This document shows positions 2,995-27,107 of a stretch of 36,040 nt of DNA, piece by piece. Under the pieces are notes generated by a model that was not told the DNA's origin, made no database searches, and saw only the letters and a program-made list of their open reading frames with translations. Positions within the stretch are counted from its first letter, which is position 1, and each line of letters starts with the position of its first letter. The stretch is from Thermoflexales bacterium. Its GTDB lineage: Bacteria > Chloroflexota > Anaerolineae > B4-G1 > DUEL01. Position numbers and translations under genes: made by a program. The stretch lies in NCBI GenBank assembly GCA_014360895.1, contig JACIWQ010000023.1:1-36040 (forward strand), written 5' to 3'.

Positions 2995-3456
2995 ATGGAC
3001 ATCCTGCACCTGGTAGATCGGCTGGAAGAGACGGTGAAGAACAGCCGCCGACTGTTCTTTTCCTCCATCCGTCTGGTGGATGAACGACGGATTATGGCCC
3101 TGGTGGAACAGATGCGCATCTCTATCCCCGAAGAGGTGCGCCGTGCCCAGCGGGTTAACCAGGAGCGGGAGCGCATCCTGGCCCAGGCGCGCGAGGAGGC
3201 AGAGCGACGGGTCCGGGAGGCCGAGCAGCGGGCTCAGGAACTGACCGCTGAGCACGCCGTCGTCCGCGCCGCTGAGGCCCGGGCCGCCGCCATCCGCGAA
3301 CAGGCCGAACGGGAGGCCGCCACCCTCCGCCGGGAGGCCGACGAGTACGTCTTCGGCGTCCTCTGTCAACTGGAAGAGGAACTCCATCGCACCCTGCGCG
3401 TCGTGGAGAACGGCCTGCGCAAATTGCAAAAGGACGAAGTACGGAGTATGGAGTAA
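2995..3456 (+). CDS. Coiled-coil protein, DivIVA / V-ATP-synthase subunit E/H-like
   Basis: Long Glu/Arg/Ala-rich coiled coil (ERERILAQAREEAERRVREAEQRAQELTAEHAVVRAAEARAAAIREQAEREAATLRREADEY); ATG 2995 preceded by GAGGTGGGA. Stop codon lies within the following repeat. Confidence 0.7.
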   Translation: MDILHLVDRLEETVKNSRRLFFSSIRLVDERRIMALVEQMRISIPEEVRRAQRVNQERERILAQAREEAERRVREAEQRAQELTAEHAVVRAAEARAAAIREQAEREAATLRREADEYVFGVLCQLEEELHRTLRVVENGLRKLQKDEVRSME

Positions 3457-3540
3457 GAAGTATGGAGTATGGAGTATGGAGTATGGAGTATGGAGTATGG
3501 AGTATGGAGTAAGAAGTACGGAATACGGAGTACGGAGTAA
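3436..3540. repeat. Heptanucleotide tandem array, 7 perfect TATGGAG units (3461-3509) flanked by AGTAAGA / AGTACGG variants
   Basis: Direct reading of gtatggagtatggagtatgg...; contains the upstream ORF stop (3454-3456) and abuts the sbcD ATG at 3541. Confidence 0.95.
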
Positions 3541-4785
3541 ATGGAAGCTATCCGTCTGCTCCACTTCGCCGACCTGCACATCGGCATAGAGAACTACGGT
3601 CGCCTGGACCCGACCACCGGCGTCAACAGCCGGGTGCGGGATTTTCTGGACCGGCTGGACGAGGTGGTGGAGTACGCCCTGAACCACGAGGCCGACCTGG
3701 TCCTCTTCGCCGGGGACGCCTACAAGACCCGCGACCCCAACCCTACCTACCAGCGGGCCTTCGCCCGGCGGGTCAAACGGCTGGCCGACGCCGGTATCCC
3801 CGTCGTCCTTCTGGTGGGCAACCACGACCTGCCGACCATGCCCCAGCGGGCCTCCAGCGTGGACATCTTCCACACCCTGGCCGTCCCCAATGTCTACGTG
3901 GGCCGGGAGGAGGACCTGCTTCGTATCCCCACCCGGCGCGGCCCCGTCCAGGTGGCCGTCGTCCCCTTCCCGGTGCGCCAGCGGCTCCTGGCCCACGAGG
4001 AGTTTCGCGGGCTCTCGCTGGAGCAACTGGACGAGGCGCTGCGGCGCATTGTGACCGAAAACATCCAGGCCCTGGCCCGGAAAGTGGACCCCGAAATCCC
4101 CGCCGTCCTGGCGGCCCACCTGAGCGTCTCCGGCGCGACCTACGGCTCCGAGCGCGGGGTGATGATCGGACGGGATACGGTCGTCCTCCTCTCCGCCCTG
4201 GCCGACCCCGTATGGGACTACGTCGCGCTGGGCCATATCCACAAGCACCAGAGCCTGAACGGGAGCGCGTACCCGCCGGTGGTCTACGCGGGCAGTCTGG
4301 AACGCATTGATTTCGGCGAGGAGCGGGAGCCAAAGGGCTTCTGCTGGGTCCAACTGCGGCGCGGGGAGACGACGTGGGAGTTCGTGGAGGTGGCCGCCCG
4401 CCGATTCGTCACCGTCCGGGCCGACCTGCGGGCGGAGACCGACCCGCTGGGGGCGCTCTCGCGGGCCGTCGCCGCCCACGACCTGCGGGACGCGGTGGTC
4501 CGCGTGGAGATGAAACTGCGCCCGGAGCAGGAGCGTCTGGTCCGGGATGCCGACGTCCGCCCCCTGCTGGCGGAGGCGGCCTTCGTCGGCAGCATCAGCC
4601 GGGATGTGGAGCGTCCGGCGCGCCTGCGTTTGGGCACCCTCCGCCCGGAGGAACTGACCCCGCCTCAACTCCTGGAGCGGTACTTGCAGGCCAAAGAGGT
4701 CCCCCCGGAGCGCCGCCGGGAACTGCTGGCGGCCGCCGCCGAGATTTTCGGAACTACGGAGTACGGAGTAGGGAGTACGGAGTAG
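3541..4785 (+). CDS. sbcD: SbcD/Mre11-type metallophosphoesterase (exonuclease SbcCD subunit D)
   Basis: LLHFADLHIGIENYGR, LFAGDAYKTRDPNPTYQRAFARR, LLVGNHDLP, AHLSVSGATYGSERGV, ALGHIHKHQ: calcineurin-like phosphoesterase motifs in SbcD order. Confidence 0.9.
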   Translation: MEAIRLLHFADLHIGIENYGRLDPTTGVNSRVRDFLDRLDEVVEYALNHEADLVLFAGDAYKTRDPNPTYQRAFARRVKRLADAGIPVVLLVGNHDLPTMPQRASSVDIFHTLAVPNVYVGREEDLLRIPTRRGPVQVAVVPFPVRQRLLAHEEFRGLSLEQLDEALRRIVTENIQALARKVDPEIPAVLAAHLSVSGATYGSERGVMIGRDTVVLLSALADPVWDYVALGHIHKHQSLNGSAYPPVVYAGSLERIDFGEEREPKGFCWVQLRRGETTWEFVEVAARRFVTVRADLRAETDPLGALSRAVAAHDLRDAVVRVEMKLRPEQERLVRDADVRPLLAEAAFVGSISRDVERPARLRLGTLRPEELTPPQLLERYLQAKEVPPERRRELLAAAAEIFGTTEYGVGSTE

Positions 4786-4812
4786 GGAGTAGGGAGTAGG
4801 GGGTAGGGAGTG
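4755..4812. repeat. Heptanucleotide array, AGTACGG / AGTAGGG variants
   Basis: tacggagtacggagtagggagtacggagtagggagtagggagtaggggg; encodes the last residues and stop of sbcD and runs into the next start codon. Confidence 0.93.
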
Positions 4813-5028
4813 ATGTACGCTGTCATCCTCGTCCCTTCCACCAGCCACGCTCTTCGGGCCGAGAAGATTCTGCGGTCGGCGGGCATAGAGTGTAAACTCA
4901 TCCCCGTCCCCCGCCATCTCAGTTCCGATTGCGGCGTCTGCGTCCGCATCCCGCGTCCGGCCCGGGAGGCCGCCTGCGCAGCCCTGGAACAGGCCCGTCT
5001 GGAGATTGAAAGCGTCCACGACCTGTGA
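4813..5028 (+). CDS. DUF3343 domain protein (putative Se/S carrier-like)
   Basis: MYAVILVPSTSHALRAEKILRSAGIECKLIPVPRHLSSDCGVCVRI matches my recollection of the DUF3343 family pattern. Confidence 0.75.
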   Translation: MYAVILVPSTSHALRAEKILRSAGIECKLIPVPRHLSSDCGVCVRIPRPAREAACAALEQARLEIESVHDL

Positions 5029-5066
5029 TTTGTGTCTTCGTGGTGAACAAAGAGCCCGGAGGCCCG

Positions 5067-8000
5067 ATGAACGATTTTCTGTTCCCTGAACCCCTGGACG
5101 AACTGGACCCGGCCGTTGCTCACCTGATTAACCTGGAGGAAGAGCGACAGGCCCGGAAACTGATTATGATCCCCTCCGAGAGTTACACCCCGCGCGCGGT
5201 CCGGCAGGCGCTGGGGTCCGTCTTCACCAACATCTACGCCGAGGGCTACCCCCTCCCCGAGACCCGCTGGATGACGGAGGAGCAGATTCTGGACTACGAG
5301 GCCCACATGGCCTTCTACCGGCGCTACGGCGACCTGCGCTACTATATGGGCGTGGAGTACGCCGACGTCGCCGAGGCGCTGGCCCGCCGGAGGTGCGCCG
5401 AGGCCTTCGCCACCGAGACCGTCCCCGCCGACCGCATCTACGTCAACGTCCAGCCCCTCTCCGGCGCGCCGGCCAACATCGCCGTCTACGAGGCGCTCCT
5501 CAAGCCCGGCGACGTCATTATGGGCATGAGCCTGACCCACGGCGGCCACCTCACCCACGGCGCGCCTGCCAACGTCTCCGGTCAGCGCTACCGGGCCGTC
5601 TTCTACGGCGTGGACCCCCGCACCGAACTGATAGACTACGACCAGGTGGAAGCGCTGGCCCTGGAACACCGTCCCCGTATCATCATCGCCGGGTATACCT
5701 CCTACCCGCGCGTCCCCGATTGGGCCAAGTTCCGGGAGATTGCGGACAAGGTCGGCGCCTACCTGCTGGCGGACATCGCGCACGTGGCCGGGATGGTGGC
5801 CGCAGGGGCCTACCCCAGCCCCCTGAGCTATGCCCACGTCGTCACCTTCACCACCCACAAGACTCTCTGCGGGCCGCGCGGCGCCTGCATCCTGACCACC
5901 GACCCGCTCCTGGCCCGCCGGATTGACCACGCCGTCTTCCCCGGCCTGCAGGGCGGGCCGCACGTCAACAAGTTCGTCGCGATGGCGGTGGCCTTCCGCC
6001 TGGCCCGGACGGAGAAGTTCCGCCGCCTGCAACACCAGATTGTCGCCAACGCGAAGGCGCTGGCCCGCGCGCTCACCGAGGAAGGGATGCGTGTCGCCTA
6101 CGGCGGCACCGACTCCCACCTGCTGGTCCTGGACTGCAAGACCGTCCGGGGGCCCTTCGGGGAACCCCTCCTGGGTGATACGGCGGCCCGCGTTCTGGAC
6201 CTGGTGGGCATCGTCTGCAACCGCAACACCCTGCCGGGCGACCCCTCACCGGCTCTCGCCAGCGGCATCCGGCTGGGGACGCCCTGGGTCACCCAGCGGG
6301 GGCTGGGGGAGCCGGAGATGGCCGAACTGGCCCACCTCATCGCCCAGACCCTCAAGTCCATCCGGCCCTACACTTATCCGGGCCGCCAGGGCCCCATCTA
6401 CCGGGGCAAGGTGGAGTTTGACGCGCTGGAGGAGGCCCGCCTGGCCGTCGCCGAACTGGCCGCGAAGGCGAACGTGGACTACGAGGTCCGCTGTACGGGG
6501 TACCCCCACCACTGCCTCATCACCGACACCCGGCCGCCGGAGGGAGAGTGGGGGCTGATAGAACTGGAGGGGAACGCCGTCCTGGCCTTCCTGAGCCACG
6601 TCCTGGTGGAGGAAATCGGCGACCTGCCGCCGGACACCTGGCGTCCGGCGACGCTCCTGGAGGCCGACGGGCGTGTGATGGCCCGGAGCTACGTCTCCCG
6701 GCCCACCTTCGGCCATCAGCGGTACCGGCTGGCCGTGCCGTCGGCGGCCTTCCAGCGGGTACTGGCCTGGCTGCGGGCCCTCTCCGACGGCTACGTCCTC
6801 TTTGACCCCCAGGACCTGCAGGCCAAACTCCCCGGCCCGGTCATCGTCCGCAACCTGGGGCCGACGTCTGCGCCCGACGGCCCGCCCCCGGAGGGCCCCT
6901 TCGTCCCACCCCTCTCTCCCAAACCCTACTACGTGGGCCTCTCCGCGCACCGCTCCGCGGAGCCCCGCGGGGAGCCGCTCCCGCGCTTGGAGTGGGAGCC
7001 CCCGGAGGAACCCCTGCGACGGACGGTCCTCTACGAGGCCCACAAGAAACTGGGCGCGCACTTCGTCCCCTTCGCCGGGTGGGAGATGCCCCTGCGCTAC
7101 GGTCCCGTCCTGGACGAACACCGCGCCGTCCGGGGCGCGGCCGGGCTCTTTGACGTGGGCCATATGGGCATCTTTGAGGTCTCCGGCCCCCACGCCGCGG
7201 CCTTCCTGGACCTGGTCAGCACCAACGACGTCAACCGGCTCCGGCCGGGGCAATCCCACTACGGCTTCCTGCTGGACCCGGAGGGGCACGTCATAGACGA
7301 CATTATGGTCTATATGCGCGCGCCGGGGCGGTACATGCTGGTGGTCAACGCGGCCAATACAGCGAAGGACTGGGCCTGGCTGAACGCGGTCAACGAGGGC
7401 CGGGTCCAGATAGACCCGGACCGGCCCTGGGCCCGGTCGCCGTTCCGGGCGGAACTGGTGGACCTGCGCGCGCCGGGCTATGAGCACCTGGCGCGGGTGA
7501 ACCTCGCGCTGCAGGGGCCCCGCTCGCGGGACATCCTGCTGGCCTGGCTGGATGCCAGCCCCAAGGGCCCTGCGGCCGACGAAATCCGCGGCAAACTCCT
7601 GAGCATGCAGCGCACCGAACTGATAGAGGTCCGCTGGCCCTGGCCCGATGCCCCCGGCGGCGTCTTTGACCTCATCATCGCCCGCACCGGCTACACTGGC
7701 GAGGCGATGGGGTTTGAACTCTTCGTCCACCCGGACTGGGCCCCGCTGCTCTGGGACCTCTTGCTCCGCTACGGCGCGCCGAAGGGGCTGCGGCCGGCGG
7801 GGTTGGCGGCGCGGGACTCTCTCCGCATTGAGGCCGGCCTTCCCCTCTACGGCCACGAACTGGCGGGCCCCCTGGACATCCGGCCCGACGAGGCGGGGCT
7901 GGAGGGCTACGTCAAACTCTACAAGCCCTTCTTCATCGGGCGGGAGGCCTTCCGGCGCCACGCCGCGCAGCGGAAGATGACCCTCATCCGCTTCCGACTG

Positions 8001-8276
8001 ACCGAGAAGGGCGTACCCGTCCCCGAGCAGGGGGACCGGGTGGTGGACCGGCGGGGGCGAGTGATCGGGCAGGTTACCTCCTGTGCGATGGATACGGAGG
8101 GATACCTGGTGGGGATGGCCTACGTGGACCGTCGGTTCTCAGAGCCGGGGGAGGACATCTTCGTTTTCGCCGTCTCCCGGGCCCCTTCGGAGAAGTCGCT
8201 GGAGGAACTGGAGATCGGGGACCGGGTGGCGATGGCGACGCCGGGGAAGGTGCTGGACCGTTTCCCCCGGCGGTAA
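5067..8276 (+). CDS. Fusion protein: serine hydroxymethyltransferase (N-terminal) plus glycine cleavage T-protein/aminomethyltransferase (C-terminal)
   Basis: SHMT motifs ([49 protein letters not shown]) followed in the same frame by GcvT motifs ([59 protein letters not shown]). GGAGG at 5058-5062 precedes ATG 5067. Confidence 0.93.
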
Positions 8277-11647: not shown

Positions 11648-12286
11648 ATGACACCCAGCAACCCGCGCCCGCTTCTGCTGGTGCTGGCCCTGATCCTGCT
11701 GACGGCCTGTCGGGGGACATCGTCGGGCGTCCTCTTCTACGACCGCTTCGGCAACCCCGACAGCGGCTGGGGAAGCGAAAGCCGGGAATCCTACGACCGG
11801 GGCTACCAGGAAGGGGAGTACTTCATTGAAGTCTACGACCCCGACTGGTTCGTCTGGGCCGGGCCGGGGAAGCGGTTCGGCGATGTGGTGGTGGCTGTGG
11901 ATGCCCGTCGGGTCTCCGGGACGGGGGGCCACTTCGGCCTCATCTGCCGCTACCGGACGCCCGCCAACTTCTACTACTTCGCCATCACCGATGACGGCTA
12001 CTACGCCATCATACGGGTTCGGGATAGCCACCCCAAGATTCTCTCCGGCGCGGGCTTTCTGCCCTCCCCCGACATCCCGACCGGCGCGGCCGTCTACCAC
12101 CTCCGCGCCGTCTGCCAGGGGGAGCGCCTCCAACTCTTCGTCAACGACCGGCCGATTGCCTCCGTCACCGATCCGACCTTCCGCCAGGGCGACGTGGGCC
12201 TGGGGGTCGGCTCCGGACCGGAAGGCTCCGTCCGTGTCCACTTTGACAATTTCCGGGTGACCGCGCCCGAGGAGGAAGAACCATGA
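11648..12286 (+). CDS. Lipoprotein with a LamG/concanavalin-like (DUF1080-like) beta-sandwich
   Basis: Lipobox LILLTAC; DRFGNPDSGWG...YFYYFAITDDGYY...LRAVCQGERLQLFVNDRPIASV...GDVGLGVGSGPEGSVRVHFDNFRV pattern; upstream GGAGGGA. Confidence 0.75.
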   Translation: MTPSNPRPLLLVLALILLTACRGTSSGVLFYDRFGNPDSGWGSESRESYDRGYQEGEYFIEVYDPDWFVWAGPGKRFGDVVVAVDARRVSGTGGHFGLICRYRTPANFYYFAITDDGYYAIIRVRDSHPKILSGAGFLPSPDIPTGAAVYHLRAVCQGERLQLFVNDRPIASVTDPTFRQGDVGLGVGSGPEGSVRVHFDNFRVTAPEEEEP

Positions 12287-12900
12287 AACACCCGGGGTAT
12301 GGAATTCTCTGCCTCCTCTGCGCCTCCCTTCTCCTGAGCGCGTGCGGCCCGAAGGGCGACCTCCCCTGGGAGGAGGATTTCTCCGCTCCCGGTACCTGGA
12401 AACTGGAATCGGACGCGGCCGCCCGGGTCACCGTGGAGGGGGGCGTACTCCGGATTTCCATCGCGGCCTCCAACCAACTGGCCTGGGCCTCGGCCGGGAA
12501 GGACCTGCGGGACTTTCGTCTCACCGTGGAGGCCTCTCAGGTCGCCGGGCCCGATGATAACGAGTACGGCGTCCTGGTCCGGATGCAGGACCCCCGCAAT
12601 TTCTACGCCTTCTCCATCAGCGGCGACGGCTATTTCCTGGTGAGCCGGTTCGTGGACGGCGTCCGTCAGCCCCTGGGGGCCGACTGGGCTCCCTCCGACG
12701 CCGTCCATCCGGGAATCGGCACCAACACCCTGGAGGTCGTGGCCCAGGGGAATCGGTTAACCTTCGTCGTCAACGGCCAGCAACTGGCCCAGGTGGAGGA
12801 CGACCGGTTCTCTCACGGTGATATTGGTCTCTATGCAGGCAGTTTCTACGAAGGAGGAGTGGAGGTCCAGTTTGACAACCTTCGGGTCACCGCGCCGTAG
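12283..12900 (+). CDS. Lipoprotein paralogous to the preceding gene
   Basis: Lipobox SLLLSAC; NFYAFSISGDGYF...LEVVAQGNRLTFVVNGQQLAQVED...GDIGLYAGSFYEGGVEVQFDNLRVTAP aligns with the upstream ORF; ATGA overlap at 12283-12286. Confidence 0.75.
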   Translation: MKHPGYGILCLLCASLLLSACGPKGDLPWEEDFSAPGTWKLESDAAARVTVEGGVLRISIAASNQLAWASAGKDLRDFRLTVEASQVAGPDDNEYGVLVRMQDPRNFYAFSISGDGYFLVSRFVDGVRQPLGADWAPSDAVHPGIGTNTLEVVAQGNRLTFVVNGQQLAQVEDDRFSHGDIGLYAGSFYEGGVEVQFDNLRVTAP

Positions 12901-14692
12901 GCCAGACGAAGGGGACGAGGCCGCTGGTAACCTGGAATGGCTGGCGCTGCTGTTGACCGCTTTGCTGGCCTTTCTGGGCGCTTTCGGGCTGACTATGGCC
13001 TACGAGGCATGGTGCGCCGACCGCATCTACCCCGGCGTGTGGGTGGGGGACGTTCCGGTCGGCGGGCTGCGGCCGGAGGAGGCGGCCCGCCATCTCCAGG
13101 AGCGACTGGCCATTCCCCCCGTCCATCTGGTGGGCCCAGACCGGGCGTGGGATGCCCCCGCCGCCGACGTCGGCCTGCAACTGCTGGCGGATGCCACCGC
13201 CCGTGCCGCCTTCCGGGTGGGGCGGGGGCCGGAGGACGGCCCGCTCACCCACCTGTTGCTCCTTTTAGGCGGCTATTCCGTTGCCCCCATTCTCTCGTTT
13301 GACGAATCGGCGGCCCGCCTGTATCTGCAGGCGCTGGCGAAGGGGATAGATGTCCCGCCGGAGGATGCCACCCTCACCCTCCAGGGGCTGACGCCGGTCT
13401 CTACTCCGGCCCGCCCGGGCCGCGCGCTGGATGTGGAAGGGGCGCTCTTGGCTCTCCGCCAGTCTCTCCAGGACCCCCGGGGCGCCCGGGTGGAACTGGT
13501 CGTTCGGGAAGTCCCGCCGCAAATCACCGATGCCGAAGCTGCCCGTGCTCATGCGGAGGCCCTCCTCTCCGCGCCGTTCATCCTGCTCCTCCCGAATCCC
13601 CGCCAGGGCGACCCCGGCCCCTGGCCTCTGGCGCCAGAGGAACTGGCCCGGATGCTCACCACCACCGTCCAGGGCGGCTACCTCGCCGTCACCCTGGACC
13701 GGGAGGCGCTGCGGGGAGTGCTGGAGGACATTGCCCCTTCTCTGGCAATAGAGCCGGTGGATGCCCGTTTTCACTTTGACCCGAGGACGGGCCAACTGGT
13801 GCCCATTTCTCCGTCGTCGCCCGGGCGGGCGCTGGACGTGGAGGCCAGCATAGAGAACATCCTGGCCGCCGCGGCGGCCGGTCAGCACACCGCGCCGCTG
13901 ACCCTGCGCACCGTCCCTCCCCGCTATCCCGATACGGCTACGGCGGAGGAACTGGGCATTCGGGAACAGGTCGCCGAAGGGGATTCGTACTTCATCGGCT
14001 CCCCCTCCGGCCGGGACCACAACATCCGCCTGGCCGCCAGCAAATTTGACGGACTGGTCATCGCCCCGGGCGAGACCTTCTCCTTTAACCGCTACCTGGG
14101 GGAAGTGAGCGCGGAGGCAGGGTACGACGAGGCCTACGTCACAATGGGGGAGCAGTTGGCCATAGAGGTCGGCGGGGGTATCTGCCAGGTCTCTACCACG
14201 GCGTTCCGGGCCGCGCTGCGCGGGGGGTATCCCATCGTGGAGCGCTGGGCCCATTACCACCGGGTCGGCTACTACGAATTGCGCGGCCACGGGCCGGGCC
14301 TGGATGCCACCGTCTATGCGCCCCTGGTGGACTTCAAATTCGTCAACGACCGCCCGACGGCGCTGCTGATAGAGACGGAGATAGAGGAAGCCAACCACCG
14401 GCTGATTTTCCGCTTCTACTCCACCGACGACGGGCGGCGGGTGGAGATCAAAGGGCCCGTCATCACCGACGAGACGGAGCCGGGCCCGCCCATTTATCAA
14501 CTGGACGAGAAACTCCCGCCGGGGACGGTGGTGGAATGGCAGACGGCGCAGAAAGGGCTGACGGCGACGGTGGAGCGGTGGGTGTATGATGCGGCGGGGA
14601 ATCTGCTCTACCACAACGTGTTCGTCAGCAAGTACGCGCCGCGCCGGGCGGCCTACCACTACGGCCCCGGCTATCAACCGCCGGAGGAATGA
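12872..14692 (+). CDS. VanW family protein with peptidoglycan-binding-like repeats (YoaR-like), N-terminal TM segment
   Basis: VanW motifs FSFNRYLGEVSAEAGYDEAYV, GGGICQVSTTAFRAAL, YYELRGHGPGLDATVYAPLVDFKFVNDRP; two repeated binding-like regions; TM LALLLTALLAFLGAFGL. TTG 12872 preceded by GGAGG (12861-12865) is the favoured start; the ORF track uses 12818. Confidence 0.85.
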   Translation: MTTFGSPRRRPDEGDEAAGNLEWLALLLTALLAFLGAFGLTMAYEAWCADRIYPGVWVGDVPVGGLRPEEAARHLQERLAIPPVHLVGPDRAWDAPAADVGLQLLADATARAAFRVGRGPEDGPLTHLLLLLGGYSVAPILSFDESAARLYLQALAKGIDVPPEDATLTLQGLTPVSTPARPGRALDVEGALLALRQSLQDPRGARVELVVREVPPQITDAEAARAHAEALLSAPFILLLPNPRQGDPGPWPLAPEELARMLTTTVQGGYLAVTLDREALRGVLEDIAPSLAIEPVDARFHFDPRTGQLVPISPSSPGRALDVEASIENILAAAAAGQHTAPLTLRTVPPRYPDTATAEELGIREQVAEGDSYFIGSPSGRDHNIRLAASKFDGLVIAPGETFSFNRYLGEVSAEAGYDEAYVTMGEQLAIEVGGGICQVSTTAFRAALRGGYPIVERWAHYHRVGYYELRGHGPGLDATVYAPLVDFKFVNDRPTALLIETEIEEANHRLIFRFYSTDDGRRVEIKGPVITDETEPGPPIYQLDEKLPPGTVVEWQTAQKGLTATVERWVYDAAGNLLYHNVFVSKYAPRRAAYHYGPGYQPPEE

Positions 14693-15300
14693 CCATGACC
14701 GACATGCCGTCTCCCATCCCTGTGGGGCGTATTCTGCAGGCCTCCAACCGGGGGTTCGTTGTGGGATGCCGGGCCATGCAGCGGGAGATTCCCGTCTTTG
14801 GCTCGTTCGTCCGGGCCGACATTCGCTCCTCCGATGCCGCCGTCTACGGCCTGATTTACAACGTCGCCCTCCGGGACGACCAGTTCGTCCGCCACATTGT
14901 GGTCGCCGAGCCGACGGAGGAGGTCGTCCGCGACCAGCAGGAGAACCGACAGGTGCCCATTGAGGTGAGCGTTCTGGCGGTAGGTTGTCGGATGGGGGAC
15001 CGCATCCTCCATTGTATCCCTCCCCAGCCGCCGGTGACAATGGACTTCCTTTATCAGTGCGCGCCCGGAGAGGTGCGGGAGTTTACCCGACGGCTGGACT
15101 ACTTCCGGCTCGTCCTGAGCGCGCGCGATGTTCCGGCGGACGAACTGCTGGTGGCCAGCCTGCGGTTTGCTGTGGCGGCCCGGCCGCCCGAAGAGCGGGA
15201 ACCGTTCCTGCTGGAAGCGGGGCGGGAACTGGCCCGGCTGCTGGGCAGCGACCTGCTGCGGCTGGAAGGGCTGCTGCGCCAGATAGCCTGGGGGCGATAG
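14689..15300 (+). CDS. HAS-barrel domain protein (HerA-associated-barrel-like)
   Basis: PIPVGRILQASNRGFVVGCR...PVFGSFVRADIRSSDAAVYGLIYNVALRDDQFVRHI...EVSVLAVGCRMGDRILHCIPPQPP resembles the HAS-barrel pattern; overlaps the VanW stop codon. Confidence 0.6.
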   Translation: MTMTDMPSPIPVGRILQASNRGFVVGCRAMQREIPVFGSFVRADIRSSDAAVYGLIYNVALRDDQFVRHIVVAEPTEEVVRDQQENRQVPIEVSVLAVGCRMGDRILHCIPPQPPVTMDFLYQCAPGEVREFTRRLDYFRLVLSARDVPADELLVASLRFAVAARPPEEREPFLLEAGRELARLLGSDLLRLEGLLRQIAWGR

Positions 15301-19894: not shown

Positions 19895-20176
19895 ATGCCG
19901 ACGGGATGGGCCCGGAGCCCGGACACGACCCCCGAAGCCGCCGGGGTCCAGATAGAGATGCTGCGGCGGGCGACCGTCGCCCAGCGCTTCCATCTGGTCC
20001 GCTCCCTGAGCCAGATGGCGATGGAACTGGCCCGCCGGGCCCTGCGGCGCCGGATGCCCGGCGCCAGCGAGACCGAGGTCAACCTGGCCTTCGTGGCCCT
20101 CTGGTACGGGAAAGACCTGGCGGAGGAGGTGCGCCGGTATCTGGCCCAGCGGGAGGAAAAATGTCGGACGTCCTGA
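19895..20176 (+). CDS. Small helical protein, antitoxin-like partner of the downstream nucleotidyltransferase
   Basis: MLRRATVAQRFHLVRSLSQMAMELARRALRRRMPGASETEVNLAFVALWYGKDLAEEVRRYL; overlaps the nucleotidyltransferase start by 16 nt. Confidence 0.6.
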   Translation: MPTGWARSPDTTPEAAGVQIEMLRRATVAQRFHLVRSLSQMAMELARRALRRRMPGASETEVNLAFVALWYGKDLAEEVRRYLAQREEKCRTS

Positions 20177-20754
20177 AGGCCCTGGTCCCCATCGTGGAGG
20201 CTCTGGAGCAACTGGGCGTAGCCTATCAGATCGGAGGCTCTGTGGCCAGTTCCGTCTACGGCGTGCCCCGAACCACGGTGGATATAGACCTGGTGGCTGA
20301 CCTGCAGCCCGAGCACGTTGAGCCGCTGGTGGCTCTCCTGCAGGACCAGTACTACATCAGCCCGGAGGCCGTTTACGAAGCTCTTCGTCGTCGTTCGTCG
20401 TTCAACCTGATCCATCTGGAGACGATGGTGAAGGTGGACGTGTTCGTCCTCCGGCCCGACCCCTATGAGCAGGAGGCCTTCCGACGGTTCCGCCGGGACA
20501 CGCTGTCATCGGCACGAGAATTCTCCCTGAGTTCACCGGAGGACATCATCCTGCACAAACTGGCCTGGTTCCGAATGGGCGGCGAAGTGTCCCAGCGCCA
20601 ATGGGACGACGTAGTGGGCGTGATTCGGGTGCAGACAAGCGCACTGGATTTCGCCTACCTGAGACAATGGGCGGCAACCCTGGGTCTTGCCGACCTGCTG
20701 GAACGGGCCATCCGTGAGGCTCTTGAAGGAGAGGAGACATGGCAACCAAATTGA
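20161..20754 (+). CDS. Nucleotidyltransferase-fold protein (AbiEii/DUF6036-like)
   Basis: YQIGGSVASSVYGVPRTTVDIDLVADL (GG-S...DxD pattern) and EDIILHKLAWFRMGGEVSQRQWDDV. The ORF-track start at 19906 is too early. Confidence 0.78.
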   Translation: MSDVLKALVPIVEALEQLGVAYQIGGSVASSVYGVPRTTVDIDLVADLQPEHVEPLVALLQDQYYISPEAVYEALRRRSSFNLIHLETMVKVDVFVLRPDPYEQEAFRRFRRDTLSSAREFSLSSPEDIILHKLAWFRMGGEVSQRQWDDVVGVIRVQTSALDFAYLRQWAATLGLADLLERAIREALEGEETWQPN

Positions 20755-21681: not shown

Positions 21682-21722
21682 GGTGACCGTCACCTTCAGG
21701 GTGACGGTCACCTCTTGTTTTT
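21682..21722 (+). terminator. Intrinsic terminator after porB
   Basis: Perfect 13-bp stem GGTGACCGTCACC (21682-21694) / GGTGACGGTCACC (21700-21712), 5-nt loop, followed by TCTTGTTTTT. Confidence 0.85.
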
Positions 21723-21734
21723 GGGGGAGGAGAG

Positions 21735-22616
21735 ATGGCCGAAGAACTTTCCCCCCATGACGACGCCCGGCATCCCCTGCAGCCCGGCCAGCATGAGGCT
21801 TTCTATTTCGCCTTCACCGCGTCCGATGGCACCGGATTCGGCCTTCTGCGCACTCTCTTCGGGCATGACTCCGTTCTGGAAATGCTCGTCCTGTATGTGG
21901 ACGGGAGGACATGGGTTCACCAATCTGCCGCTGGGCTGCGAGGGAGTGTCTCCGACCTGGACGCGTCCGGTTCTGTGCTCCAGATGTACTGCAGGCAACC
22001 CTGGGAGACGTGGGAGTGCTCTTTCAGCGGTCCGGTTCGGAACGAATCGGGCCGGGAGGTTGCTTTGCTCCTGCAACTGGAGTTCACGGCGACGACGCCG
22101 CCGGGTCGGTACACCTTCGGCCCCTACATCCAAACTCAGCAGGACGGGCGGTTACGTGGCCGTATTCGGATCGGCGAGGGGGACCAGAGCGGAGAATGGC
22201 TCTGTTACCGGGACCACAGTTGGGGAGTGCGACCGATGGGAGTCGCTCTGGGATGGACGGTTGCCTGGGTTCCGGAGCGCCTCTACGCCGTCCGGGTGGA
22301 GACCCCTCAGGGCCCGGCGGGCTTTGGCCGCTTTTTTGCGGGGAACGGGGTCTTTCGCCCTCTGCACCTGCCAGAAGTGACGGCCGTTTCCGACGGCTGG
22401 CAGGTGGAAGAACGGGACGCTGGCCTGGAACCCTGGATGTTCGCCCGAATTGCCAGGCCCCTGGTCGGGTACCTGGGACCGGCGGGTCACGAGGCTTTCC
22501 GTCCCGCACCCCAGCCGGGTGACCTCCTGCGGGACGAACTCGGCCCCGCTTGCTTCACCTCGCCTGAAGGAAAACGGCATATTGGATTTCTGGAGCAGGC
22601 ACGGAGGATCCCATGA
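21735..22616 (+). CDS. CrtC-like / DUF7064-type lipocalin-like hydratase-fold protein
   Basis: FYFAFTASDGTGFGLLRTLFGH...GEWLCYRDHSWGVRPMGVALGWTVAWVPE: the YRDHSWG signature as I recall it for carotenoid 1,2-hydratase-like/DUF7064 proteins. Confidence 0.65.
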   Translation: MAEELSPHDDARHPLQPGQHEAFYFAFTASDGTGFGLLRTLFGHDSVLEMLVLYVDGRTWVHQSAAGLRGSVSDLDASGSVLQMYCRQPWETWECSFSGPVRNESGREVALLLQLEFTATTPPGRYTFGPYIQTQQDGRLRGRIRIGEGDQSGEWLCYRDHSWGVRPMGVALGWTVAWVPERLYAVRVETPQGPAGFGRFFAGNGVFRPLHLPEVTAVSDGWQVEERDAGLEPWMFARIARPLVGYLGPAGHEAFRPAPQPGDLLRDELGPACFTSPEGKRHIGFLEQARRIP

Positions 22617-24256
22617 CCGAATGGTTACTCAGCGGACATAACACTCAGGAAACGACCAGTCTGGCGCGACCGGTGACGGTGACAATGACGGAGGCCGGCC
22701 TGGATGCCCAGATTTCCTGGTTTCTGGGTGCTCTGGCCGGAGACACATCGGACTTTGACCCTACCGTCAAGCCGACCCAGGTTGTCCAGGGATGGCTGTA
22801 CCTCAACATTCACTACTATGCTCGGAATATGGCGCGCGTCCTTCCCTTTGATCCGACGTCGGTTGGTGCGCCAGCCGGATTGATTCAGGAAACCGTTCAC
22901 GTTCCCCGTCGCCGGATGCTCGCGCTGCCCTGGCGTTTCGGCCGCGTCTATCGCTGGGCCACCCGTTTCTATCGTCGTCAACTCCCCCTGATAGATAACC
23001 GGTTGCGGGAGATCTTCTGGCAGCTCCGGGAGGGCATGGACGACCTGATGCCACTGACCGACGCGCTTTTTGACCCCGATTTCTACACCCAATGCCGGGA
23101 AACCGACCGGGCGCACATCGTTGTCTCGCTGACGATCACCGCGCTGGATGGAATGCTTCGCCAACGGGCTCCGGAACTCTTGCCCCTTTTCGCGGGCGAG
23201 GCGACGGCGACCTCCCTGCTGGGCCAGCGCATCTGGGAACTCCGCGACTTGGCCGCGCAGTCCGCGCCTCGGATTCGCCGCATGCTGGAGGATGGCATCG
23301 CCGACCTGGAAGCGTATCAGGCCCTCCCGGAAGCCACTCCGCTCGTGGAAGGCGTCCGGGCTTTCCTTCGCCAGTACGGTCATCGGGGATTCCGCTTTGA
23401 GGCCGATTTTGAAACGGAGCGGTTGGCCGACCGCCCGGAGCACATCCTCCTGGCCGTCGCGGCTCAACTGCGAGAGGACCAGTCTCCCCAGGTGCGGGCT
23501 GATGCCGCCCGCCAGCGCGCTCAGGAGACCCTGCAGCGTATGTCCCCCTTGCAGCGTGCCTTCTGGCAGCGCATCCTTCGCTGGGGCCGCCAATTGATCT
23601 CCTGGCGGGAAGATTCCAAGAGCAACATTGCCCTCCGGCAGGCCACCTATGGTCTGATAGCTCGCCTCCTGGCCCGCCATTTCTACCCCAACCAGCCCGA
23701 TGATATTCTGATGTTCTACACCCTGGACGAGTTTCTGGCCTTTGCCCGCAGCCACGGTGAACAACGGGTCCCCCTGGACATCCTGGAGCGTCGGCGGGCG
23801 GAGTACGACCTGCACCGGAACCAGCCTCCGCCCCCAGAGTTGATCTGGTACAACCCGGAGACCGGATACTGGCGTCCGGCTGGGGAGGCGGGTGAGGCCG
23901 CTTCGGCGGAGCCTGTCACCCATTTCCAGGGCATCCCGGCCAGTCCAGGGGAGGGGCCGGTGGAGGGCATCGCGCTGGTCACCAACGACCCGCTGGAGGC
24001 CGGACGGCGATTGCTGAAAATGGAGGGGCCGGTCATTCTGGTCACCCGGCTGACGGACCCGGCGTGGTCCGGGCTCTTCCGGCGGCTGAGCGGGGTGGTG
24101 ACAGAACTGGGCGGCGTGATTTCCCATGCCGCGATTGTGGCCCGAGAAAACGGCCTTCCGGCCGTGGTGGGGGTCGCCGACATAACCCGCCACGTCCGGG
24201 ACGGCCAGCGGCTGCGGCTGGATGGCCGCACGGGCGTCGTGGAGGTGCTGGGATGA
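22613..24256 (+). CDS. Split rifampin phosphotransferase/PEP synthase-like protein: substrate-binding-like middle region plus C-terminal phosphohistidine swivel domain
   Basis: FLRQYGHRGFRFEADFETERLADRPEHIL and RQATYGLIARLLARHFYPNQPDDILMFYTLDEFL resemble the RPH substrate-binding region; ELGGVISHAAIVARENGLPAVVGVADITRHVRDGQRLRLDGRTGVVEVL is a PEP-utilizer mobile domain with the conserved His. Confidence 0.82.
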   Translation: MTEWLLSGHNTQETTSLARPVTVTMTEAGLDAQISWFLGALAGDTSDFDPTVKPTQVVQGWLYLNIHYYARNMARVLPFDPTSVGAPAGLIQETVHVPRRRMLALPWRFGRVYRWATRFYRRQLPLIDNRLREIFWQLREGMDDLMPLTDALFDPDFYTQCRETDRAHIVVSLTITALDGMLRQRAPELLPLFAGEATATSLLGQRIWELRDLAAQSAPRIRRMLEDGIADLEAYQALPEATPLVEGVRAFLRQYGHRGFRFEADFETERLADRPEHILLAVAAQLREDQSPQVRADAARQRAQETLQRMSPLQRAFWQRILRWGRQLISWREDSKSNIALRQATYGLIARLLARHFYPNQPDDILMFYTLDEFLAFARSHGEQRVPLDILERRRAEYDLHRNQPPPPELIWYNPETGYWRPAGEAGEAASAEPVTHFQGIPASPGEGPVEGIALVTNDPLEAGRRLLKMEGPVILVTRLTDPAWSGLFRRLSGVVTELGGVISHAAIVARENGLPAVVGVADITRHVRDGQRLRLDGRTGVVEVLG

Positions 24257-25209
24257 CGGAGTTGCTTGTTGCCCCGTGGGAGCCGGAAACCGAACGACCG
24301 CTGCCACCCGTAGATATGGTGGGCGGGAAAGGGTATGGCCTCTACTGGCTGGCGGCCCACGGCTTTCCCACCCCGCCCACCTGGGTGCTGACCACCGCCG
24401 CGTTTGACCTGACGATTCAGCGAATGGAATTGGGGGAGGAAATTGCTCGGCTCGCCCAAATTATGGCGGACGTCGGCGACAACTGGACCCAATTGCAACA
24501 GGCGCTGGACGACATAAAACCGCGTCGTCAGGAAATCGTAGACCGGGTCACCCAGGCTATCCTCCTGGACCCCATCGGGCGGGTGTTGGAGAAACTGGTC
24601 CTGATGCCCACCCAGTGGGCCGTCCGCTCCTCCGCAACGGTGGAGGACCGCCCCGGCCAGAGTTTCGCGGGTCAGTTCCTTTCCCTCTTATCGGTGCCCC
24701 CGGGACGCCCGCTCTGGGACGCGATCCGGCAGGTCTGGGCCTCCGCGCTCCGCCAGGAAGTGCTCGCTTACTGTGCCCAGAGAGGCCTTCCTTTCCCCCG
24801 TATGGCCGTGATCCTGCAGCCGATGGAACCGATCACCGCTCGGGACCGCTCCGGCGTCGCGTTCAGCCAATCCCCTGTGCCATCTATGCCCGGGCTGCTC
24901 ATTCAGGCTGCCTGTGGCGCCGGAGAGACCGTCGTCAAGGGATACGGCGGAGACCTGTACAGCGTGGAGGGGGATACCGTATATATCCGGCGTATGCCCC
25001 CTCCGGAGATTCGGGTCACCGGGCCGAAGGGGTATCTGGAACCCGCACCGCCGCCGGATGTTCTGCCCCTGACCGAGGATGAAGCCCGCCGCCTGGCCGC
25101 GCTGGTAGAACGGGTGGCCTGGGACTGGGAAGGTCCGGTCAACGTGGAATTTATCTGGCGGGCTGGACAGGAGCCGCAGTTCGTGCAGGTGCGCGCCGCG
25201 GCGACGTAG
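24253..25209 (+). CDS. PEP/pyruvate-binding (PPDK N-terminal, ATP-grasp) domain protein, separate ATP-binding subunit
   Basis: DMVGGKGYGLYWLAAHGFPTPPTWVLTTAAFD, WAVRSSATVEDRPGQSFAGQFLSLLSV, MAVILQPMEPITARDRSGVAFSQSP, NVEFIWRAGQEPQFVQVRA. ATG 24253 overlaps the upstream TGA. Confidence 0.85.
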   Translation: MTELLVAPWEPETERPLPPVDMVGGKGYGLYWLAAHGFPTPPTWVLTTAAFDLTIQRMELGEEIARLAQIMADVGDNWTQLQQALDDIKPRRQEIVDRVTQAILLDPIGRVLEKLVLMPTQWAVRSSATVEDRPGQSFAGQFLSLLSVPPGRPLWDAIRQVWASALRQEVLAYCAQRGLPFPRMAVILQPMEPITARDRSGVAFSQSPVPSMPGLLIQAACGAGETVVKGYGGDLYSVEGDTVYIRRMPPPEIRVTGPKGYLEPAPPPDVLPLTEDEARRLAALVERVAWDWEGPVNVEFIWRAGQEPQFVQVRAAAT

Positions 25210-26684: not shown

Positions 26685-27107
26685 TTGTCGGAGGGAGACA
26701 TGTCCGAAGACCTGCTGGCCACCCCCTGTGTGGGGGAATCCGAACAGGTGGTGACCGAAGAGTGGAGCGCCCTCTCTATGGGGAGTGGTACGGTGCCGGT
26801 TCTGGCGACTCCGGCGCTGGTCGCTCTGATGGAGCAGGCCGCCGTCCGCGCACTGGAGGGCCGCCTCCCTGCCGGTCAGACCTCCGTCGGGGTCCGCATA
26901 GACGTCCGCCATCTGGCCGCTACCCCCATCGGGATGGGCGTGCGCGCCCGTGCCACACTGGTCGCCGCTGAAGGTCGCCGTCTGACTTTCCAAATAGAGG
27001 CGTGGGACGACGCGGAGAAGGTCGGAGAGGCCGTCCATGAGCGGGTGCTGGTGGACGTGGGGCGCTTTCTGGAGCGGGTGCAGGGCAAACTCGGACCGCA
27101 AAAATGA
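26685..27107 (+). CDS. Hotdog-fold thioesterase, FlK (fluoroacetyl-CoA thioesterase)-like
   Basis: ATPALVALMEQAAVRALEGRLPAGQTSVGVRIDVRHLAATPIGMGVRARATLVAAEGRRLTFQIEAWDDAEKVGEAVHERVLVD. Confidence 0.85.
   Translation: MSEGDMSEDLLATPCVGESEQVVTEEWSALSMGSGTVPVLATPALVALMEQAAVRALEGRLPAGQTSVGVRIDVRHLAATPIGMGVRARATLVAAEGRRLTFQIEAWDDAEKVGEAVHERVLVDVGRFLERVQGKLGPQK

Follow-up and report, generated by a model that had tools for sequence, protein, structure and literature searches.

A 36,040-nucleotide stretch of DNA from a Thermoflexales bacterium (JACIWQ010000023.1; contig C146 of genome G000 in our set, the entire contig, hereafter the window), belonging to a 3.57-Mb genome, carries three plus-strand genes, here termed P1, P2 and P3, that probably constitute a module for the ATP-dependent dehydration of an alcohol. 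We propose that a two-component dikinase made of P2 and P3 phosphorylates the alcohol and that P1, the likely lyase of the system, eliminates the phosphate to leave an alkene. Coupling of the genes, the fold and a sequence motif of P1 and the association of its wider family with kinases all point to P1 acting on the product of P2 and P3. An earlier reading of the same DNA (the original prediction) had described three plus-strand genes joined by overlaps, and both junctions are indeed ATGA. The por operon upstream is not counted as part of the triad, because it is separated from P1 by a strong, 14-bp terminator-like hairpin with a T tail, only 22 bases upstream of the P1 start codon; at the equivalent site genome G002 has a different hairpin without a T tail.

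Judging from their sequences, P2 and P3 are almost certainly the two subunits of a dikinase, as had been predicted. PF00391, found in P2 only, is C-terminal (residues 472–541, E = 1.1e-22, with GGVISHAAIVAREN) and is the only Pfam domain of P2, and PF01326, found in P3 only, covers residues 21–315 (E = 1.9e-37) of a protein that has no His domain. These matches bear out the predicted order of a substrate region like that of rifampin phosphotransferase (RPH) followed by the swivel His in P2, with a separate ATP-grasp of the pyruvate phosphate dikinase (PPDK) type in P3. P2 matches the RIF-binding and swivel parts of the RPH-type families (NF004881, 1e-38; RIF_Ptrans_rph, 2.8e-35) and the RPH structure 5fbs (E = 1.4e-20), the latter match starting at residue 200. 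When profiles of P2 and of its split and single-chain relatives were compared, columns 55–549 were aligned, and therefore most of the N-terminal half is homologous as well; the RPH match, the profile match and an R-E-x-x-K motif together identify a substrate-binding domain of the RPH type. The phosphoacceptor His lies in a T/SxxGGxxxH context (T497-E-L-G-G-V-I-S-H505) that is kept in every sequence covering it. Mutagenesis of RPH has tested K22, R117, T136, E297, R666, E667, K670 and H825 (PMC4844700), and every catalytic residue compared is present in P2 or P3. By alignment reading, these residues are invariant in the orthologues covering them, except for S or T at the Thr136 site. All three domains of RPH are thus shared by the triad, where they are distributed over two chains instead of one.

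The split itself, to which the original prediction had drawn attention, has been described before (PMC12167813, PMC7500099). HpeHI of Rhodococcus, whose relatives include CreHI and PpsAB, was described as a two-component RPH homologue in which HpeI is the ATP-grasp and HpeH the substrate-plus-swivel part, and in which both subunits are required and the His of the H subunit is essential (PMC12167813). In phenylphosphate synthase, the alpha (His) subunit and then the beta (ATP-grasp) subunit carry neighbouring locus tags (PMC7500099), and the H gene likewise precedes the ATP-grasp gene in a Rhizobium operon of Hpe-like appearance (L102) and in a second split family from the taxonomic order of the window (L083–L089). 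Hence the domain order, which had been called inverted, is inverted with respect to single-chain RPH but is no oddity, since it is the usual gene order of the known two-component dikinases. A tree of the H part places the P2 proteins of the triads in one starred clade (100/100), which disposes of a recent split in a single genome, and the Hpe-type subunit of L102 in a separate starred clade (95/92). This tree suggests, short of proof, that the triad dikinase was split independently of the Hpe-type enzymes.

The phosphate-lyase role of P1 was proposed from gene neighbourhoods and from the paper on 25-hydroxysteroid kinase, ahead of the fold search. The AlphaFold model of P1 (pLDDT 92.7) was then compared with 350,542 PDB chains, and the best matches were those to 25-phosphosteroid lyase (25-PSL; 9fzn, 9g2i and 9g4c), with E values of 5e-11 to 3e-10 and TMq of 0.66–0.69 (0.67 for the top match at 5e-11). 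AttH (2ich), the Diels-Alderases Phm7 and Fsa2 and kievitone hydratase followed, which supports the lipocalin/CrtC-superfamily fold that had been predicted. The entry 9g2i holds phosphate, and 9g4c holds phosphate together with desmost-1,4-diene-3-one. A literature search for the gene name of 25-PSL found no paper in the collection searched, the protein appearing only as 2026 PDB entries.

P1 is probably a remote member of the DUF7064/DUF7065/Rv3169 family, as suggested by profile and motif. A Pfam search with P1 gave no match, and the CrtC domain PF07143 was found in none of seven P1 orthologues, all seven of which match Rv3169_fam (NF053593) around R-D-H-S-W-G (best E = 2.5e-9). By score, P1 lies below every curated cut-off (26.7 against 150 bits for Rv3169_fam). 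An alignment of 19 DUF7064/65 members matches 25-PSL with a profile E value of 7e-23, and P1 matches the same alignment with an hhalign probability of 99.4%, a pairwise value that is not calibrated against a database; P1 is therefore not unrelated to CrtC/DUF7064, as it might have proved to be. His13 and the motif from R159 to R166 occur in every full-length P1. Together with 25-PSL and nearly all DUF7064/65 members, the P1 orthologues share H13, Q136, R159, D160, S162, W163, G164 and R166; five of these (Q136, R159, D160, S162 and R166) are found in 16–19 of the 19 members. P1 of genome G051 has RDRSWGVRP, as does 25-PSL. Where P1 has D160 and 25-PSL has Asp, 9g4c has Asn, presumably a mutation made to trap the complex.

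Relatives of P1 are associated more widely with kinases, which belong to two unrelated folds. In Chloroflexota, DUF7065 is found in only 7 of 301 genomes; eight loci in six of these seven genomes were counted, a weak ninth hit in G184 being excluded. PF00391 or PF01636 lies within 2 kb of six of the eight, with P of about 3e-9 as computed from the measured density of PEP-utiliser and APH domains; at a radius of 5 kb the chance is about 3e-7. A single-chain dikinase is near the locus on G070:C571, a split H subunit beside an enoyl-CoA hydratase is near that on G070:C542, a swivel-domain gene is near both loci of G287, and an APH kinase adjoins those of G347 and G282; the linked dikinases include L042 (single-chain) and L043 (split). 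As tblastn of P1 against plasmids gave no match, linkage on plasmids was surveyed with a DUF7064/65 relative. The DUF7064 gene lies 2 and 4 bases before PEP-utilising/dikinase genes on plasmids of Mycobacterium avium (L062) and Rhodococcus (L066), and beside an APH "phosphotransferase family" gene on five plasmids (L064, L065, L074, L076 and L079) from Pseudonocardia, M. branderi, Novosphingobium, M. paragordonae and Sphingopyxis. Because some plasmid loci were chosen for also having P2 hits, the statistic is confined to the Chloroflexota loci, for which only the DUF model was used in the search. A literature search for DUF7064/7065 found no paper.

Two further features of the plasmids are recorded here in their own right. 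On M. avium pP7a (L062), two DUF7064-like genes each directly precede a PEP-utilising H-type gene (3136–5912 and 11977–14707), and the P3 profile recognized no ATP-grasp partner in that stretch. Bacterial microcompartment loci on plasmids of Methylibium petroleiphilum (L075) and Rhodococcus oxybenzonivorans (L068) contain a DUF7064/65 gene, near which a HAD hydrolase and a "pyruvate, phosphate dikinase" are encoded; tertiary-alcohol metabolism is a possible function.

The triad is conserved beyond the window. Among 48 genomes of the order, 9 have a P2 orthologue (51–87% identity), as does one more genome of the class, and P1-P2-P3 is kept, patchily, in at least six Anaerolineae genomes (G000, G002, G008, G012, G014 and G022), with P1 cut by a contig end in G008 and the triad of G022 relying on an inferred contig join. 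The order is kept in other genera, and the arrangement is therefore more than chance. P1-P2 with P3 out of view is found in G051 and on one contig of G040, and in G003 and G004 P2-P3 lies at the ends of contigs. The eight P1/P2 junctions that were read are all ATGA or gaps of a few bases. A contig scan with two short peptide patterns, which gives a lower bound, also found triad loci in records of Anaerolineae metagenome-assembled genomes, e.g., Thermoflexales bacterium S014_19 and Anaerolineales bacterium SZUA-1492. In G022, contigs C17 and C138 (L015 and L014) overlap by about 46 identical bases, which would give P1-P2a-P2b-P2c-P3, so that three tandem substrate subunits appear to share one ATP-grasp subunit, provided that the join is correct. 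The end of C17 reads CTGTCTCTTATACAC, an apparent sequencing adapter (Nextera remnant). A fused counterpart of the tandem P2 genes is seen in L092 (G045:C99, 3963–8159), a 1399-aa chain with one ATP-grasp and two successive substrate-plus-swivel modules, and frames of about 1400 aa resembling it occur in G042 and G047.

Table 1. Positions, in the window, of the triad genes, their junctions and the residues discussed.
Feature	Position	Strand	Description
P1	21735..22616	+	293 aa; CrtC/AttH superfamily; nearest solved relative 25-PSL; predicted phosphate-eliminating C-O lyase
P2	22613..24256	+	547 aa; substrate-binding (RIF-binding-like) and swivel phosphohistidine subunit of the two-component dikinase
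P3	24253..25209	+	318 aa; stand-alone ATP-grasp subunit of PPDK/PEPS/RPH type; start is an internal ATG, the open frame itself beginning at 24064
P1/P2 ATGA overlap	22613..22616	+	read from sequence
P2/P3 ATGA overlap	24253..24256	+	read from sequence
Terminator-like hairpin, strong	21682..21712	+	between por operon and P1
P1 His13	21771..21773	+	invariant in P1 orthologues and in 19/19 DUF7064/65; equals 25-PSL His22
P1 R159-D-H-S-W-G-V-R166	22209..22232	+	R-D-x-S-W-G-x-R lyase motif (predicted role); R159 and R166 in common with 25-PSL, not with CrtC-type L080
P2 W331-R332-E333-D-S-K336	23603..23620	+	R332/E333/K336 equal RPH Arg666/Glu667/Lys670
P2 GGVISH505	24110..24127	+	phosphoacceptor His; equals RPH His825
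P3 Lys26	24328..24330	+	equals RPH Lys22, phosphate contact
P3 Arg125	24625-24627	+	equals RPH Arg117
P3 Ser144			S/T in orthologues; equals RPH Thr136
P3 Glu299	25147-25149	+	equals RPH Glu297

Based on these data, we propose the following mechanism, in which the steps from ATP through phospho-His to the substrate are supported by homology only. P3 would bind ATP, and His505 of the swivel domain of P2 would attack the beta-phosphate, ATP ending as AMP and Pi. The swivel domain would then move to the substrate pocket of P2, where R332, E333 and K336 may assist phosphate transfer onto a small-molecule hydroxyl group. P1 would remove the phosphate from the resulting ester to form an alkene, with D160 as the putative catalytic acid/base and R159 and R166 as candidate phosphate ligands. 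Phenyl phosphate cannot undergo such an elimination, and the substrate is therefore expected to be an aliphatic alcohol, likely, by analogy, a hydrophobic or tertiary one. With its established stoichiometry a dikinase would, we argue, provide more driving force than an ordinary kinase. A dikinase would make sense here, given the very high transfer potential of tertiary phosphate esters (PMC8449060).

A published precedent for this chemistry comes from Sterolibacterium, in which tertiary 25-hydroxysteroids are dehydrated in two steps, being first phosphorylated with ATP and then losing the phosphate through the action of a separate C-O lyase; the energy-rich nature of the tertiary esters puts the equilibrium of that kinase below one (PMC8449060). 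The triad shares with 25-hydroxysteroid kinase and 25-PSL (PMC8449060, PMC11061730) the logic of a kinase and a phosphate-eliminating lyase, P1 resembling the latter in fold, motif and family. It differs in that the phosphotransferase of Sterolibacterium is ADP-forming rather than a dikinase, and in that no lyase candidate lies near that kinase, whereas the triad genes are coupled. To our knowledge, and within the literature searched, no two-component dikinase has been described as a partner of a 25-PSL-like lyase.

Several observations weigh against ATP-dependent dehydration by the triad. P1 by itself is remote, its own profile reaching 25-PSL at E = 0.47 only, its alignment to the DUF7064/65 profile spanning only columns 14–227 and its length being 293 aa against about 360 aa for 25-PSL. 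The CrtC superfamily, with the same fold, includes hydratases and Diels-Alderases, and the Asp-x-x-Trp-Gly core is also present in a CrtC-type protein (L080). A nearby kinase is lacking at two of the eight DUF7064/65 loci of Chloroflexota, and G040:C320 carries P2-P3 without an adjoining P1. The flanking genes of the triad are not conserved past genus level, and a search for conserved pathway genes around the triad loci found none. Finally, the structural model of P2 is poor (pLDDT 61.9, from a 10-row alignment).

The superfamily membership of P1 also bears on the order of events in the original prediction. On that view P1 would make or present the alcohol that P2 and P3 then phosphorylate, and could be a hydratase, isomerase or cyclase of the CrtC/AttH type or a binding protein. 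AttH, Phm7/Fsa2 and kievitone hydratase do follow 25-PSL in the fold search within one superfamily, and in G053 (L080 on contig C192, frames 3499–4632 and 4620–6341) a split H subunit frame overlaps a CrtC/Diels-Alderase-type gene with the motif GYHDHNWG. The motif of P1, RDHSWGVR, is however the 25-PSL/DUF7064 version and not HDHNWG; L080 differs from P1 at Q136, R159, S162 and R166, and the P1 profile gives only 7% with L080 against 99.4% with DUF7064/65. We regard this order as unlikely; P1 more plausibly follows the kinase, as a lyase that eliminates phosphate. Still less probable, in our judgement, is that P2 and P3 form a phenol-phosphorylating enzyme like HpeHI, CreHI or PpsAB, which would stand at the start of aromatic catabolism, with P1 as an accessory. 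The two-subunit architecture, the gene order and the conversion of ATP to AMP and Pi are the same (PMC12167813; L102), but P2 lies outside the clade holding the Hpe-type subunit and its substrate domain is only remotely similar, the triad loci showed none of the carboxylase, HAD and lyase genes known from the Hpe and Pps routes, and a P1 acting as phosphate lyase would be useless on phenyl phosphate.

The RPH-type families nearest to P2 raise the prospect of antibiotic inactivation, as by RPH with rifamycins, and rifampicin had been put forward as a substrate. Every match to a rifamycin phosphotransferase model nevertheless falls far short of the cut-off (for NF041857, 121.9 bits for P2 and 79.4 bits for P3 against 999), such a function would leave P1 without a role, and single-chain RPH-like paralogues exist separately in the triad-bearing genomes; rifampicin is thus unsupported and antibiotic inactivation highly improbable. 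We give least credence of all to a split PEP (phosphoenolpyruvate) synthase or PPDK of central metabolism. PEP synthase is the best family match of P3 and por genes lie upstream, but P2 has the RPH-type substrate domain, a Pfam search of P2 and P3 found no PEP/pyruvate-binding C-terminal domain after the swivel domain, which ends P2, and long-frame dikinase-like genes are present elsewhere in G000 (C195 and C229). Phosphorylation by P2 and P3 followed by elimination by P1 therefore remains our preferred reading.

Other genes of the window include a 1083-aa frame (5025–8276) that fuses serine hydroxymethyltransferase (101–439) and glycine-cleavage T protein (669–960) domains. Between porA and porB, and overlapping porB, is a nucleotidyltransferase-like gene (19906–20754; weak AbiEii/aminoglycoside-nucleotidyltransferase match), of which G005 and G006 match only the first ~80 residues and G002 has no match. 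Downstream of the triad, a gene of the Fluoroacetyl-CoA-specific thioesterase family (FlK; 26685–27107) is conserved within the genus alongside DUF2142 and a methyltransferase gene, even in G006, where the triad was not found. A clean empty site was sought in G005 and G006, which belong to the same genus, and none was found, the por genes and DUF2142 being on separate contigs or in some other arrangement.

One anaerobic sterol pathway is known to dehydrate tertiary alcohols at the cost of ATP. If the proposal is correct, a two-component dikinase would here power such a module for the first time, which is chemically attractive because, with tertiary alcohols, the equilibrium of the ordinary 25-hydroxysteroid kinase lies below 1 (PMC8449060). 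More tentatively, we suggest as a serious possibility, somewhat short of a probable one, that the DUF7064/DUF7065/Rv3169 proteins are widespread lyases that eliminate phosphate. They would work with kinases of two or more unrelated types, namely APH-like kinases and dikinases (single-chain or split), and ATP would be spent to dehydrate alcohols that otherwise do not react. The Anaerolineae triad would then be the version of this system that uses a dikinase and is translationally coupled, and in it a single ATP-grasp subunit could serve several substrate subunits. Were DUF7064/65 this lyase family, a large uncharacterized family that includes Rv3169 of M. tuberculosis would gain a concrete reaction, and its kinase neighbours would gain a purpose.

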